DNA of 64,000 nucleotides from Parazoarcus communis (lineage in GTDB: Bacteria > Pseudomonadota > Gammaproteobacteria > Burkholderiales > Rhodocyclaceae): positions 434,001 through 498,000 of the forward strand of contig NZ_CP022187.1 of NCBI RefSeq assembly GCF_003111645.1. Direction: 5' to 3'. The notes under the pieces are model-generated. The model was given only the letters and a program-made list of their open reading frames with translations. It had not been told where the DNA came from and searched no databases. Below, in pieces: positions 1,812 to 14,022 of this stretch. Numbering within the stretch: the stretch's first letter is position 1; the number at the start of each line of letters is the position of its first letter. Both the position numbers and the translations under genes were made by a program.

Positions 1812-1825
1812 TTGATCTAGGTCAA
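1812..1825 (+). promoter_or_regulatory. FNR box upstream of a gene-free transcript
   Basis: TTGATCTAGGTCAA, one mismatch from the FNR/Anr consensus TTGAT-N4-ATCAA. A -10-like CATAAT lies at 1847-1852, which puts the expected start near 1860, about 41.5 bp from the box centre as in class II FNR promoters. No gene begins behind it before a terminator at 1932-1960. Confidence 0.75.
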
Positions 1826-1859
1826 CGGACGCTTTGAGGCAGTAGGCATAATGCCGACA

Positions 1860-1960
1860 TGGTTTTCGGATGTGCGCAGTGACGAACTGCGGTGATCTGA
1901 AAGGGTATTTTTGTCTCTCTGTTGGGGTTGGGGGTGCGTTCAAGACGCACCCTTTTTTTT
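1860..1960 (+). ncRNA. Candidate FNR-activated small RNA
   Basis: About 100 nt between a class II-spaced FNR promoter and a strong intrinsic terminator, with no convincing coding sequence. A first small hairpin (CGCAG/CTGCG, about 1876-1892) is followed by an unpaired stretch rich in T and G (about 1900-1931) and then the terminator stem. This order (hairpin, single-stranded seed-like region, terminator with eight Ts) is typical of Hfq-type sRNAs such as FnrS in enterics and AniS in Neisseria. No sequence homology to these is claimed. Boundaries are inferred from the promoter and terminator only. Confidence 0.55.
1932..1960 (+). terminator. Rho-independent terminator of the candidate sRNA
   Basis: Perfect 8-bp stem GGGTGCGT/ACGCACCC with a 5-nt loop, followed by eight Ts. 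It lies 130 bp after ccoS and separates ccoIS from the ccoN promoter. Confidence 0.85.
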
Positions 1961-2178: not shown

Positions 2179-3609
2179 ATGCAATCGCAAGCGACTTATA
2201 ACTACAAAGTCGTGCGCCAGTTCACCATCATGACGGTGGTGTGGGGCATCGTGGGCATGCTGGTCGGTGTCATTGCCGCAGCACAGCTCGTGTGGCCTGA
2301 ACTGAACGTGCACGAGTTCCTGCACTTTGGCAGGTTGCGTCCGCTGCATACCAACGCGGTCATTTTCGCTTTTGGCGGATGCGCGTTGTTTGCAACGTCC
2401 TACTACGTTGTGCAGCGTACCTGTCATACCAAGTTGTTTGCGCCTGCACTCGCCGGTTTCACCTTCTGGGGCTGGCAGCTGGTCATCGTTCTGGCCGCAA
2501 TCACCCTGCCACTGGGTTACACCCAGGGTAAGGAGTACGCCGAGCTCGAGTGGCCGATCGACCTGCTGATCGCCGTGGTGTGGGTGTCCTACGCCGTTGT
2601 GTTCTTCGGCACGATCGCCAAGCGCAAGATCAGCCACATTTACGTGGCGAACTGGTTCTTCGGCGCCTTCATCCTGACCGTCGCGCTGCTGCACATCGTC
2701 AATAGCGCTGCCATCCCGGTGTCCTTCATGGGCATGAAGTCCTACTCGGCCTATGCCGGTGTCCAGGATGCGATGATCCAGTGGTGGTACGGCCACAACG
2801 CGGTGGGCTTCTTCCTGACCGCCGGCTTCCTCGGCATGATGTACTACTTCGTGCCCAAGCAGGCTGAGCGTCCGGTCTATTCCTATCGCCTCTCCGTGGT
2901 TCACTTCTGGGCACTGATCTTCACCTACATGTGGGCGGGTCCGCACCACCTGCACTACACCGCGCTGCCTGACTGGACCCAGTCTGTCGGCATGGTGTTC
3001 TCGCTCATCCTGCTGGCTCCGTCCTGGGGTGGCATGATCAACGGCATCATGACCCTGTCGGGCGCCTGGCATAAGCTGCGTACCGACCCGATCCTGAAGT
3101 TCCTGGTCACCTCGCTGTCGTTCTACGGCATGTCCACGTTCGAAGGTCCGATGATGTCGGTCAAGACCGTGAATGCGCTGTCGCACTACACCGACTGGAC
3201 CGTTGGTCACGTGCATTCCGGCGCACTGGGCTGGGTTGCGATGATCTCGATCGGTGCGGTGTACTTCCTGTTGCCGCGTCTGTACGGCAAGACCGAGATG
3301 TACAGCACCAAGCTGATCAACACCCACTTCTGGATTGCGACCATCGGTATCGTGCTGTACATCGCCTCGCTGTGGGTTGCCGGTGTGATGCAGGGCCTGA
3401 TGTGGCGTGCAACCAACGCGGACGGCACCCTGACCTACTCGTTTGTTGAGAGCGTCAAGGCCAGCTACCCGTTCTGGACGATCCGTCTGGTGGGTGGCGC
3501 CCTGTTCCTGGCTGGCATGGTGATCATGTTCTACAACATGGTGAAGACCATCGCCGGTGAGAAGGCATACAACGCGCCCGTGATTGCACCTGCGGCTGCA
3601 CACGCCTAA
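2179..3609 (+). CDS. ccoN: Cbb3-type cytochrome c oxidase subunit I
   Basis: Catalytic, proton-pumping heme-copper subunit of the high-affinity cbb3 oxidase in the inner membrane. The 476 residues form about 12 membrane helices. Visible ligands include the His of RPLHTNA for low-spin heme, the WYGHNAVGF helix with the CuB histidine, the HHLHY pair of CuB histidines, and the HVHSGALGW segment for the heme pair. The start is the ATG after AGAGGTG. It is first in ccoNOQP; the ccoO gene follows after 15 bp. Confidence 0.98.
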
Positions 3610-4465: not shown

Positions 4466-5354
4466 CTTTATCAGCGGTTTCTGGAACATGTACGTGATGG
4501 GTCTCGTGGCCCTGAGCATCCTGTTCTGTATTTTCGTGCTGGTCTCGAACATGACCAAGCGCGAGCCGGGCGAAGTCAAACTGCACGGTCACGTGTGGGA
4601 TGAGACCCTCGCGGAATACAACAACCCGCTTCCGCGCTGGTGGTTGTATCTGTTCTGGATCACCATCGTTTTCGGCATCGTGTACCTCGTGATCTACCCC
4701 GGCTTCGGCAATCACAACGCCGATCGCGGTGAGCACAGCCAGTACTATGCAGAAATGAAGGCCGCCGACGAGAAGTACGGCCCCATCTTTGCCAAGTACC
4801 AGGACATGGATCTCATGGCCGTTGCGGCGGATCCCGAAGCCAACGCGATGGGCAAGCGCATGTTCCTGACCTACTGTGCGCAGTGTCACGGCTCTGCTGC
4901 TCAGGGTGCCAAGGGCTTCCCGAACCTGACCGACGACGAATGGAACTGGGGCGGTGAGCCCGACACCGTCAAGACCACCATTATGGGTGGGCGCATGGGC
5001 GTGATGCCGGCTTTCGGTGCCGCGCTTGGCGGTGAGGGTGTCAAGGACGTTGCAAACTACGTCCGCTCGCTCTCGAACCTGGCTCACGATTCTCTGCGCG
5101 CCCAGCGTGGCAAGGAAGTCTTCGATACGAACTGCGTGGCGTGTCACGGTGCGGATGGCAAGGGCAACCCGATGCTGGGTGCGGTCAACCTGACCAACAA
5201 ATCATGGCTGTATGGTTCGTCCGAAGCGACGATCATCGAAACCGTGACCAACGGTCGTCAAAACCAGATGCCTGCATTCCAGGAGTTCCTTGGCGATGCC
5301 AAAGTTCATCTCCTCGCAGCATATGTGTTGAGTCTTAGCAAGGAACAGAAGTAA
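4458..5354 (+). CDS. ccoP: Cbb3-type cytochrome c oxidase subunit III (diheme)
   Basis: Diheme cytochrome c, the electron entry subunit of cbb3 oxidase. It has 298 residues from the ATG overlapping ccoQ, preceded by an AAGGAAGG ribosome site. Two membrane helices (about 8-30 and 62-82) show the longer, two-helix CcoP architecture. Heme sites are CAQCH at 140-144 and CVACH at 226-230, each followed by a methionine ligand region. An in-frame upstream ATG at 4407 lies inside ccoQ and is not supported. A strong terminator follows. Confidence 0.98.
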   Translation: MADFISGFWNMYVMGLVALSILFCIFVLVSNMTKREPGEVKLHGHVWDETLAEYNNPLPRWWLYLFWITIVFGIVYLVIYPGFGNHNADRGEHSQYYAEMKAADEKYGPIFAKYQDMDLMAVAADPEANAMGKRMFLTYCAQCHGSAAQGAKGFPNLTDDEWNWGGEPDTVKTTIMGGRMGVMPAFGAALGGEGVKDVANYVRSLSNLAHDSLRAQRGKEVFDTNCVACHGADGKGNPMLGAVNLTNKSWLYGSSEATIIETVTNGRQNQMPAFQEFLGDAKVHLLAAYVLSLSKEQK

Positions 5355-8074: not shown

Positions 8075-8518
8075 TCAGCGGTAGACCAGTACCGGCGTCG
8101 TACCGTGTGTCAGCACTTTCTGTGTTTCGCTTCCGAGCAGCAGGCCCGCGATGCCTTTGCGCCCGTGAGAAGCCATGAAAATCAGATCGCAGCCGTGGCG
8201 TTCCGCTGCGTCGATGATTGCCTCATAGGGCACCTCATTGACCAGCGTGTCGGTTGCGGCGAGAACACCGGATGCATCCGCCACTGCTTTCGCGCTCGCC
8301 AGAATGCGTTCGGCTTCCTGTTGTGCCGACTTGGCGAACTGCTCGGGCGTGGTGGGGTCTATGAGAGCACCTTCGCCGTAAATCGGCATCGGGAAATCCG
8401 GTTGGGCGTAGAAAAAGGTGATTCGTGCGCCCGCATCTTTGGCGAAGGACACAGCACGTGATACGGTGCCTTCAGAAAGGGGCGAGCCGTCGGTAGGTAC
8501 GAGAATATGTTTGAACAT
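8075..8518 (-). CDS. Universal stress protein, UspA family
   Basis: Cytoplasmic UspA-fold protein of 147 residues starting MFKHILVPTDGS; the start was chosen at 8518 because GGAG lies 7 nt upstream. The C-terminal ATP-loop reads ASHG-x9-GS, i.e. the G2xG9xGS motif with the first Gly as Ala, a common variant. A textbook class II FNR promoter is seen: FNR box 8581-8594, perfect TATAAT at 8556-8551 on this strand. It is therefore likely induced when oxygen is short, as known for USPs in other anaerobes (for example Pseudomonas under Anr). Confidence 0.93.
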   Translation of the reverse strand: MFKHILVPTDGSPLSEGTVSRAVSFAKDAGARITFFYAQPDFPMPIYGEGALIDPTTPEQFAKSAQQEAERILASAKAVADASGVLAATDTLVNEVPYEAIIDAAERHGCDLIFMASHGRKGIAGLLLGSETQKVLTHGTTPVLVYR

Positions 8519-8580
8519 GTAAGTACTCCATGGGTCGCGGTGTGTATCCAATTATAGCCACCGATGCATCGCTCCCGGGC

Positions 8581-8594
8581 TTGATCAGGGTCAA
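8581..8594. promoter_or_regulatory. FNR box between uspA and the MBL-fold gene
   Basis: TTGATCAGGGTCAA, centre 8587.5. On the minus strand a perfect TATAAT (8556-8551) follows at the right distance for a start at about 8546 (-41.5). Toward the plus strand only a poor -10 (TGTTAT, 8622-8627) is seen, so control of the MBL-fold gene is possible but not shown. Confidence 0.85.
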
Positions 8595-8639: not shown

Positions 8640-10049
8640 ATGGACATCACGTTTTATGGCGCGGCCGGTGAAGTCACCGGTTCCTGCGCAGTGGTCCGAC
8701 ATGACGGCGGTGCCTTCATGGTCGACTGCGGCATGTTTCAGGGGGGGCGCGAGGCCGGGCTCAAGAATCTCCGGGCGCTCGATTTCGACCTCGATTCCAT
8801 CGACTTCGTCCTCCTCACGCATGCGCATCTCGATCATACGGGGCTGGTTCCGCGGCTGATCGCCCTTGGGTACAAGGGACGGCTCCATGCGACGGATGCA
8901 ACGGTCGATCTGCTCGGCGTCATGCTGCTTGATTCGGCATACATCCAGGAAAAGGAGTTCGAGTGGGCGAGTCGTCGCAACCGCTCGCGTCACGGACGTC
9001 GGAGTTCCGCCGCGGCGCCGCTGTACACGGTCGAACAGGCGCGGGCCAGTCTGCACCGGCTTCAACGCGTCCAGTACGATGCACTCATTCACCCCGGGAA
9101 GGGGGTTTCCTGCCGCTTTCGCGACGCAGGGCACATCCTGGGGTCTGCGATCATTGAAGTGGATGTGATGGAGGGCGGCGCCACCCGACGGCTGGTGTTC
9201 TCAGGTGACCTCGGTCAGCCCGATCGCCCGGTGTTGCGTGATCCCTATCAGGTCCGCGCCGCGGATTACCTGTTTATTGAAACGACGTACGGCAATCGCG
9301 CTCACCGCCCCTTGAACGAGACCGAGGACGAACTCGTTCACGCCCTCAATGACACGCTTCAGCGCAAGGGCGGCAACGTCATCATTCCGGCCTTTGCGGT
9401 CGGGCGTACCCAGGAGGTGCTGTTCATCCTTGCAAAGCTGGTACGGGCGGAGAAGGTGGCGCGACTCGAGGTCATCGTCGATTCGCCAATGGCGACGGCG
9501 GTCACTGATCTCACGATGCAGCACGAGGCGCTGTGGGATGACGAGACCCGTGAGCTTTCTTCCTGGATGACGGCGAATTCAGACCGCTTTCACCTGCGGT
9601 TTGTCGCCGACGTCGAAGAGTCGATCGCGCTCAACCATCAGCGCGGCGGGCTGGTGATCATCTCGGCGAGCGGCATGTGTGATGCCGGGCGGGTGAAGCA
9701 CCATCTGCGATACAACATTGACCGCAAGGAGTGCTCAGTCATCATCGCCGGTTTTCAGGCCGCTGGCACGCTGGGGCGGCGACTGGTGGACAAGGCACGC
9801 GTCGTCACGCTTCTTGGCGACAAGGTGCCGGTGAGGGCGGATGTTTATACGATAGGCGGCTTGTCCGCGCACGCGGACAAACCTGCGCTGCTCGAATGGA
9901 TGCATCATATTGAAACGCAGCCGCGGCAGACTTTTCTGGTGCATGGCGAAACCGAGGCACGTGCGGCGTTTGGCGCCGCCGTGGCCGAGCAGCTGGGCTG
10001 GTCCGGCTTGACCGAGCCGGTCGCCGGAGAAACCTATCATCTGAGTTGA
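8640..10049 (+). CDS. MBL-fold beta-CASP RNA-processing hydrolase
   Basis: A 469-residue zinc-dependent nuclease-like protein of the metallo-beta-lactamase/beta-CASP (CPSF73/Ysh1-like) family. The zinc motif HAHLDH is at residues 61-66. The beta-CASP region contains the expected motifs, including DSPMA in the middle and a C-terminal GGLSAHAD and VHGE. The start follows GGAGG. The substrate is unknown; family members cleave or trim RNA. The recurring neighbourhood with a USP and a PHA synthase under an FNR box suggests a role in low-oxygen metabolism, by inference only. phaC follows after 46 bp. Confidence 0.9.
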   Translation: MDITFYGAAGEVTGSCAVVRHDGGAFMVDCGMFQGGREAGLKNLRALDFDLDSIDFVLLTHAHLDHTGLVPRLIALGYKGRLHATDATVDLLGVMLLDSAYIQEKEFEWASRRNRSRHGRRSSAAAPLYTVEQARASLHRLQRVQYDALIHPGKGVSCRFRDAGHILGSAIIEVDVMEGGATRRLVFSGDLGQPDRPVLRDPYQVRAADYLFIETTYGNRAHRPLNETEDELVHALNDTLQRKGGNVIIPAFAVGRTQEVLFILAKLVRAEKVARLEVIVDSPMATAVTDLTMQHEALWDDETRELSSWMTANSDRFHLRFVADVEESIALNHQRGGLVIISASGMCDAGRVKHHLRYNIDRKECSVIIAGFQAAGTLGRRLVDKARVVTLLGDKVPVRADVYTIGGLSAHADKPALLEWMHHIETQPRQTFLVHGETEARAAFGAAVAEQLGWSGLTEPVAGETYHLS

Positions 10050-13214: not shown

Positions 13215-13961
13215 TCAGCGCGCGCCGGGCTGGTGCTGAATGAGTTTCTTGAGACCGTCGTTGTCGAGAATGCGGATATGTTTCTGCTGCACCGCGACGA
13301 GGCCGTCTTCCTGAAAGCGGGAGAAGGCACGCGAGACCGTTTCCAGCTTCAGGCCCAGATAGGAGCCGATCTCTTCGCGGGTCATGCGCAGGTGAAACTC
13401 GGCGGCCGAGAAGCCACGAGCGGTGAAGCGCTGCGACATGTTGAGCAGGAAGGCCGCCAGACGCTCTTCCGCGCGCATGGAGCCCAGCAGCATCATCACG
13501 CCGTGATCGCGCACGATCTCGCGGCTCATGACCTTGTGGAACTGGTGCTGAAGGCCTTCGATCTCGCGGGACAGTTCTTCCAGCTTGGCGTAGGGAATGA
13601 CGCAGACCTCGCTGTCTTCGAGCGCAACCGCATTGCACGAGTGGAACTCGGTGCTGATGCCGTCGAGCCCGATGATCTCGCCGGTCATCTGGAATCCGGT
13701 GACCTGCTCGCGACCATCTTCGAGCAGAACGTCGGTCTTGAAGGAGCCTGCACGGATCGCATAGATGGCTTCGAAGAGTTCGCCTGCGCGATAGAGCGGC
13801 TGCTGACGCTTGATCTTCCGACGCCCGCCGACAAGTTCGTCGAGGCGGTTGAGTTCAGTGTCAGTCATGCCGAACGGCAGGCACAGCTCCAGCAGATTGC
13901 ATTGTGAGCATGCGGTTTTGAGCCCCGCCGCGGTGATCGGCACCGTCGCCTTCATTTGCAC
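13215..13961 (-). CDS. fnr: Oxygen-sensing regulator FNR/Anr
   Basis: Crp/Fnr regulator of 248 residues with the 4Fe-4S cysteine set: C18, C21 and C27 (C-x2-C-x5-C) plus C109. The HTH recognition region TREEIGSYLGLKLETVSRAFSRF contains the E-x2-S-R pattern that reads TTGAT half-sites. It is therefore the probable activator at the four FNR boxes in this region. The GTG at 13961 is used because GGAG lies 10 nt upstream; the ATG two codons later is an alternative. Its divergent promoter with hemN holds an FNR box, so self-regulation is likely. Confidence 0.95.
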   Translation of the reverse strand: MQMKATVPITAAGLKTACSQCNLLELCLPFGMTDTELNRLDELVGGRRKIKRQQPLYRAGELFEAIYAIRAGSFKTDVLLEDGREQVTGFQMTGEIIGLDGISTEFHSCNAVALEDSEVCVIPYAKLEELSREIEGLQHQFHKVMSREIVRDHGVMMLLGSMRAEERLAAFLLNMSQRFTARGFSAAEFHLRMTREEIGSYLGLKLETVSRAFSRFQEDGLVAVQQKHIRILDNDGLKKLIQHQPGAR

Positions 13962-14008: not shown

Positions 14009-14022
14009 TTGATCCAAGTCAA
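14009..14022. promoter_or_regulatory. FNR box between fnr and hemN
   Basis: TTGATCCAAGTCAA. The expected hemN start would be near 14057, with a -10-like TTGTTA around 14047-14052. On the minus strand no good -10 is visible at class II distance, so the effect on fnr may be repression or none. Confidence 0.8.

Follow-up and report, generated by a model that had tools for sequence, protein, structure and literature searches.

FnrS of E. coli and relatives is reportedly an FNR-activated, terminator-ended small RNA (sRNA) that acts in trans. Among betaproteobacteria, meningococcal AniS and gonococcal FnrS are Hfq-dependent, FNR-controlled sRNAs made under oxygen limitation, and their targets have also been described as elusive (PMC4176332, PMC5362039). 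RF02278/S17S (Betaproteobacteria toxic small RNA; ncS27 or bdhR1 in Burkholderia) undergoes processing and has an invariant seed of about 27 nt (PMC11722255, PMC5688073), and repression of mRNAs by pairing at their ribosome-binding sites has been demonstrated for S17S in Bordetella (PMC11722255; the Burkholderia RNA is covered in PMC5688073); the S17 paper makes no mention of FNR control (PMC11722255). Here we analyzed the region between ccoS and ccoN in a window of 64,000 nucleotides of Parazoarcus communis (NZ_CP022187.1, assembly GCF_003111645.1, 434,001-498,000, forward strand; coordinates below are window positions unless marked otherwise). We are fairly confident that this region carries an independently transcribed regulatory sRNA of about 100 nt, made from an FNR-activated class II promoter, whose seed would block the translation of target mRNAs. 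It represents a new family of a known, FnrS/AniS-like kind.

The resemblance to E. coli FnrS lies in this FNR-activated, terminator-ended, trans-acting kind, here predicted, whereas genomic place and seed are different; that to AniS and gonococcal FnrS lies in the FNR-controlled kind of sRNA, a likeness by description rather than by direct comparison of the sequences. Over 1780-2180 the Rfam FnrS covariance model gave no match, and Rfam as a whole gave no relevant family, either at the gathering threshold or at E values up to 5, which bears out, as far as Rfam families go, the lack of evident homology to FnrS and AniS expected in the original prediction. We also found no description of a ccoS-ccoN sRNA in open-licence papers. 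SorY (RF02651) showed a weak similarity over 1900-1960 (20.5 bits, E 0.058), well short of the 111 bits of its gathering score. In style the closest relative is RF02278/S17S, from which the ccoS-ccoN sRNA is distinct: both have an invariant seed that starts CU-rich (UGUCUC...) and a terminator ending in a U tract, but the seed is GUCUCCUCCACCCUCCUCC in RF02278 and GUCUCUCUGUUGGGGUUGGGG in the ccoS-ccoN sRNA. Direct reading found GUCUCCUCCACCCUCCUCC to be absent from the latter, and the RF02278 covariance model (cut-off 50 bits) had no match in 1780-2180. The P. communis genome holds three RF02278 copies, all away from ccoS-ccoN (contig positions 2193590, 2770966 and 3404879). The first of them (2193590) is found about 1.3 kb upstream of erpA, and in several other genomes of the family a copy stands within a few kb of this gene.

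The sRNA gene and its promoter are very likely real, judging from the arrangement of elements between ccoS (1567-1800, + strand, TIGR00847) and ccoN (2179-3609, + strand, TIGR00780) and from its preservation in relatives. An FNR box, TTGATCTAGGTCAA, with one departure from TTGAT-N4-ATCAA, stands at 1812-1825 (+), as read from the sequence, a pattern count and comparison with relatives, and is followed after 21 nt by a -10 element, CATAAT, at 1847-1852 (+), which is CATACT in most relatives. Both the spacing, which recurs in relatives, and the centre of the box, at about -41 from the predicted start near 1859, are those of a class II FNR promoter, confirming the near-consensus box and class II spacing proposed beforehand. 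The predicted sRNA of about 102 nt spans 1859-1960 (+), with its start placed by the -10 element and its end by the U tract, and is backed by conservation. Its predicted fold (-38.2 kcal/mol vs -26.0 for shuffles, z = -4.0) runs from a 5' hairpin at 1863-1903 (+), of species-variable sequence and retained folding potential in the compared genomes, through an open stretch to an intrinsic terminator at 1930-1960 (+). The open stretch holds the near-invariant single-stranded seed GTCTCTCTGTTGGGGTTGGGGG (1913-1934, +, by alignment) with an 18-nt core, TCTCTGTTGGGGTTGGGG, inside it (1916-1933, +, by alignment). The terminator, recognized by fold and covariation, consists of a stem-loop within 1930-1954, GGGGGTGCG-TTCAAGA-CGCACCC, and T8, its stem covarying between species, and would give the transcript a U7-8 tail. 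The sRNA region contains no conserved gene, and the open reading frames there are chance ones whose frame differs between genomes; the strong terminator after the first box, with no gene between them, is as originally described. Further downstream, a second FNR box, TTGATCTGTGTCAA (2062-2075, +), identified by sequence and pattern count and kept in relatives that lack the sRNA, and a -10 element read from the sequence, TATCCT (2097-2102, +), form the ccoN promoter.

Sites of the form TTGAY-N4-RTCAA number four in the 64-kb window, against 0.13 expected from shuffles. The likely regulator, fnr, is encoded about 11 kb from the sRNA (13215-13961, - strand; NF008365 Fnr, above cut-off), and its product shows, on reading the sequence, an N-terminal CxxCxxxxxC motif and an ETVSR recognition helix. 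We consider FNR control of the sRNA very likely. Two further near-consensus FNR boxes were observed in the window, one at 8581-8594, flanked by genes resembling those of a universal stress protein (8075-8551, -) and a metallo-hydrolase (8640-10049, +), and one at 14009-14022, about 50 nt upstream of fnr.

In a BLAST search with positions 1795-2000 against 151 genomes of the same GTDB family, 113 genomes from 53 of the 68 genera matched, with the hits clustering on 1907-1964; with 113 of the 151 genomes matching, the arrangement is not a matter of chance. All of the best 30 loci lie between ccoS and ccoN, and in 29 of these 30 an FNR box is followed at 19-22 nt by a -10-like hexamer. When aligned, these loci vary in the 5' part and share an invariant GnCTCTCTGTTGGGGTTGGGGGTGCG-loop-CGCACCCTTTTTTT. 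An exact scan of GTDB genomes for the 18-nt core TCTCTGTTGGGGTTGGGG recovered at least 120 loci, among them Azoarcus, Parazoarcus, Aromatoleum, Thauera, Pseudothauera, Denitromonas, Zoogloea, Uliginosibacterium, Dechloromonas, Azonexus, Accumulibacter, Sulfuritalea, Oryzomicrobium, Tepidiphilus and Ca. Desulfobacillus. Among the 120 exact-core matches listed, 114 are linked to cco genes (ccoS and/or ccoN adjacent) and 110 have an FNR box; of the four listed cco-linked loci that lack the box, two have less than 50 nt of upstream sequence. Among these matches, 104 of 109 loci have the -10 element 21-22 nt downstream of the box, compared with about 2.8 per position in shuffled controls. Because a scan of this type forces identity of the core, we took 39 further loci, mainly of lower BLAST ranking: the core was free of mismatches in 35 of them amid diverged surroundings, the mismatches in the other four were confined to its last few G positions, and an FNR box was present in 35 of the 39. 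Terminator stems were paired in 99% of alignment cells, with double changes in four of seven pairs, and none of 500 shuffles was as good, while the 5' parts of 107 loci varied in sequence and folded with a mean z of -2.5. Comparison among genomes thus shows the gene, its promoter architecture, the seed and the terminator alike: box, -10 element, seed and terminator occur together across most genera of the family, so that the conservation in relatives on which the original prediction hinged is present. The core is almost unchanged across the Azoarcus/Thauera/Dechloromonas group, and the conserved element is about 1907-1960 plus the promoter, slightly narrower than the 1812-1960 first proposed.

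We also inspected the sequence upstream of ccoN in 15 genomes of the family without a BLAST match. Three of them have a second box together with an RNA that is exact or recognizably related; a fourth (locus L300, genome G055) has an FNR box and a terminator upstream of ccoN with the seed diverged to GTGGTCTGGGTTCGG, which suggests that the seed can change in rare lineages. Most of the remaining genomes have a single box near ccoN and no terminator, and relatives that lack the seed usually lack the first FNR box and the terminator as well. This retention of only the ccoN-proximal box where the sRNA is missing agrees with the earlier view that the second box serves ccoN and the first has no coding target. 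Other families of the order as a rule have one box, and among them we saw such an RNA in only two genomes of two families (G321 and G340). In five Zoogloea-like loci ccoS, the FNR box and the sRNA remain together, followed by an rlmN-like gene, with ccoN elsewhere, and in six Sulfuritalea/Desulfobacillus-like loci Rrf2-like and/or fnr-like genes lie between the sRNA and ccoN (gene identities in both groups read from the sequence). Since the sRNA persists where ccoN is displaced, it is a gene of its own and no ccoN leader. In the Sulfuritalea/Desulfobacillus-like lineage an fnr-like regulator gene and the FNR-box sRNA are thereby found side by side. Searches beyond the family with a model of the element returned, class-wide, terminator-like matches only (about 22-28 bits) with no cco context, and blastn against a plasmid collection returned no match. 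A second model match in the P. communis genome (503139-503190, 27 bits) was rejected, as it has no seed. In one genome of another family of the class (L073, about 1500-1545, G785), ATCTCTGTTGGGGTGGCAACACCCCTTTTTTT combines part of the seed with a different terminator and has no cco genes nearby; it is either a chance occurrence or a very distant relative.

These comparisons bear on two readings that dispense with a separate regulatory RNA. The hairpin might merely terminate the upstream ccoIS operon, with the first FNR box a spare or remote ccoN site; the terminator does come directly after ccoS and FNR boxes are expected before ccoN, but the unpaired seed upstream of the stem is more strictly conserved than the stem itself, the -10 element keeps a fixed class II spacing from the box, and box and terminator are usually absent where the seed is absent, all of which leaves this account improbable. 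It is similarly improbable, and slightly more so, that the element is a cis-acting leader or attenuator of ccoN, with an FNR-driven start at 1859 and regulated termination at 1960. Such a leader would explain the near-constant position, mostly 170-380 nt upstream of ccoN, yet ccoN has its own FNR box and -10 element downstream of the terminator, no alternative partner is seen for the terminator stem, and RNA and box are kept together in the Zoogloea-like loci and those with Rrf2-like or fnr-like genes, where ccoN is not adjacent.

Two further readings accept a transcript and give it another role. That its G-rich seed acts as a sponge at low oxygen, capturing RF02278/S17 double-hairpin RNAs by their C-rich seed GUCUCCUCCACCCUCCUCC, draws on the presence of both RNAs in the same genome, with its three RF02278 copies, and on a duplex of -19.2 kcal/mol, below the composition-shuffle means of -12.5 and -15.7. 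However, 31 and 98 of 1000 shuffles did as well as the real duplex, which is barely better than composition predicts and has interrupted pairing, and the role of the seed's UCUCUCUG half would go unexplained; we hold this to be very unlikely. A small conserved peptide is hardly credible and was rejected, even though some frame is open through the core in 99 of 110 loci and CATGG is common near the start site: the open frames are spread over all three frames (58/45/72), only 23 of 110 loci have an ATG where the transcript is predicted to start, third codon positions vary as little as the other two, and the core itself shows length changes of a single base.

Under the regulatory sRNA reading, FNR would bind 1812-1825 under oxygen limitation and activate the class II promoter, so that transcription would start near 1859 and end at the terminator at 1930-1960. 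The resulting RNA would consist of a 5' hairpin of variable sequence, the almost invariant single-stranded seed GUCUCUCUGUUGGGGUUGGGGG and the terminator, whose U7-8 tail is suited to Hfq and suggests that this chaperone may be used. The seed would then pair with mRNAs whose ribosome-binding region resembles CCCAACAGAGA, blocking their translation, and the mRNAs affected under this model would be those containing CAACAGAG. We consider seed pairing with repression probable. The first bases of the open seed, UCUCUCUGUUGGGGUUGGGGG, are complementary to ribosome-binding sites of the AGAGA type.

The clearest candidate target came up by chance. Two of the few exact-core matches that have no cco neighbors (L089 and L189) proved to lie on the strand opposite a ribosome-binding region, which reads GCCCCCAACCCCAACAGAGAGAACACATCATG or a close variant of it; the gene behind these sites belongs to the TusE/DsrC family, and its product is 85-87% identical to a protein of G010, a genome that carries the sRNA, which is itself assigned to this family (TIGR03342). 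The same tusE gene in G010 has a near-perfect copy, CCCCCACCCCCAACAGAGAGA. Predicted sRNA-tusE duplexes in the three genomes have energies between -41.5 and -45.9 kcal/mol (z between -6.8 and -8.9); the near-perfect pairing, about 20 nt long, covers the ribosome-binding site and was seen in these three related genomes only. The best predicted target is this tusE/dsrC-family sulfur-relay gene in three related genomes, and we lean towards its being a true target in the Desulfobacillus-like lineage. In the P. communis genome, allantoicase and folE2 each have a one-mismatch seed site at the gene start, and a BenC/MmoC-like oxygenase reductase has a shorter site, which is kept in a second species of the genus; these are candidates only. 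Seed-complement sites in this genome number 16, compared with eight for one scrambled control, a weak comparison and a weak twofold excess because ribosome-binding sites are rich in AGAG. Family-wide, exact seed complements upstream of ATG showed no excess over reversed-pattern controls (about 12 vs 10 and about 27 vs 24, counted by hand after removal of the sRNA's own antisense matches). The cco genes were weak as targets (mean z from -1.2 to +0.8) and were rejected, as was erpA as a conserved target beyond the Azoarcus-like group, since it is not conserved across the family.

Rhodocyclales-type bacteria such as Azoarcus, Aromatoleum, Thauera, Dechloromonas, Zoogloea and Accumulibacter matter for denitrification, anaerobic aromatic degradation and wastewater phosphorus removal. 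Their oxygen/nitrate switch is usually attributed to FNR-type proteins, and an FNR-driven RNA present in nearly all of them would supplement it with regulation at the post-transcriptional level. An 18-nt seed that almost never changes while its surroundings do would imply many constrained targets. It is possible, if doubtful, that this sRNA, whose single seed is the same in most genera of an order-sized group of denitrifying and wastewater bacteria, stops the translation of TusE/DsrC, Fe-S and oxygenase-linked genes at low oxygen. If so, it would be a core and so far undescribed part of their oxygen response, encoded next to the cbb3 oxidase and, in some lineages, also next to fnr. The tusE/dsrC leaders themselves (L089 about 5000-5075, L189 about 985-1060, L222 about 1440-1525) carry upstream ATTCCCGACTAATAATGTCAAGTATA or a close variant, a sequence that resembles an IscR type 1 operator.
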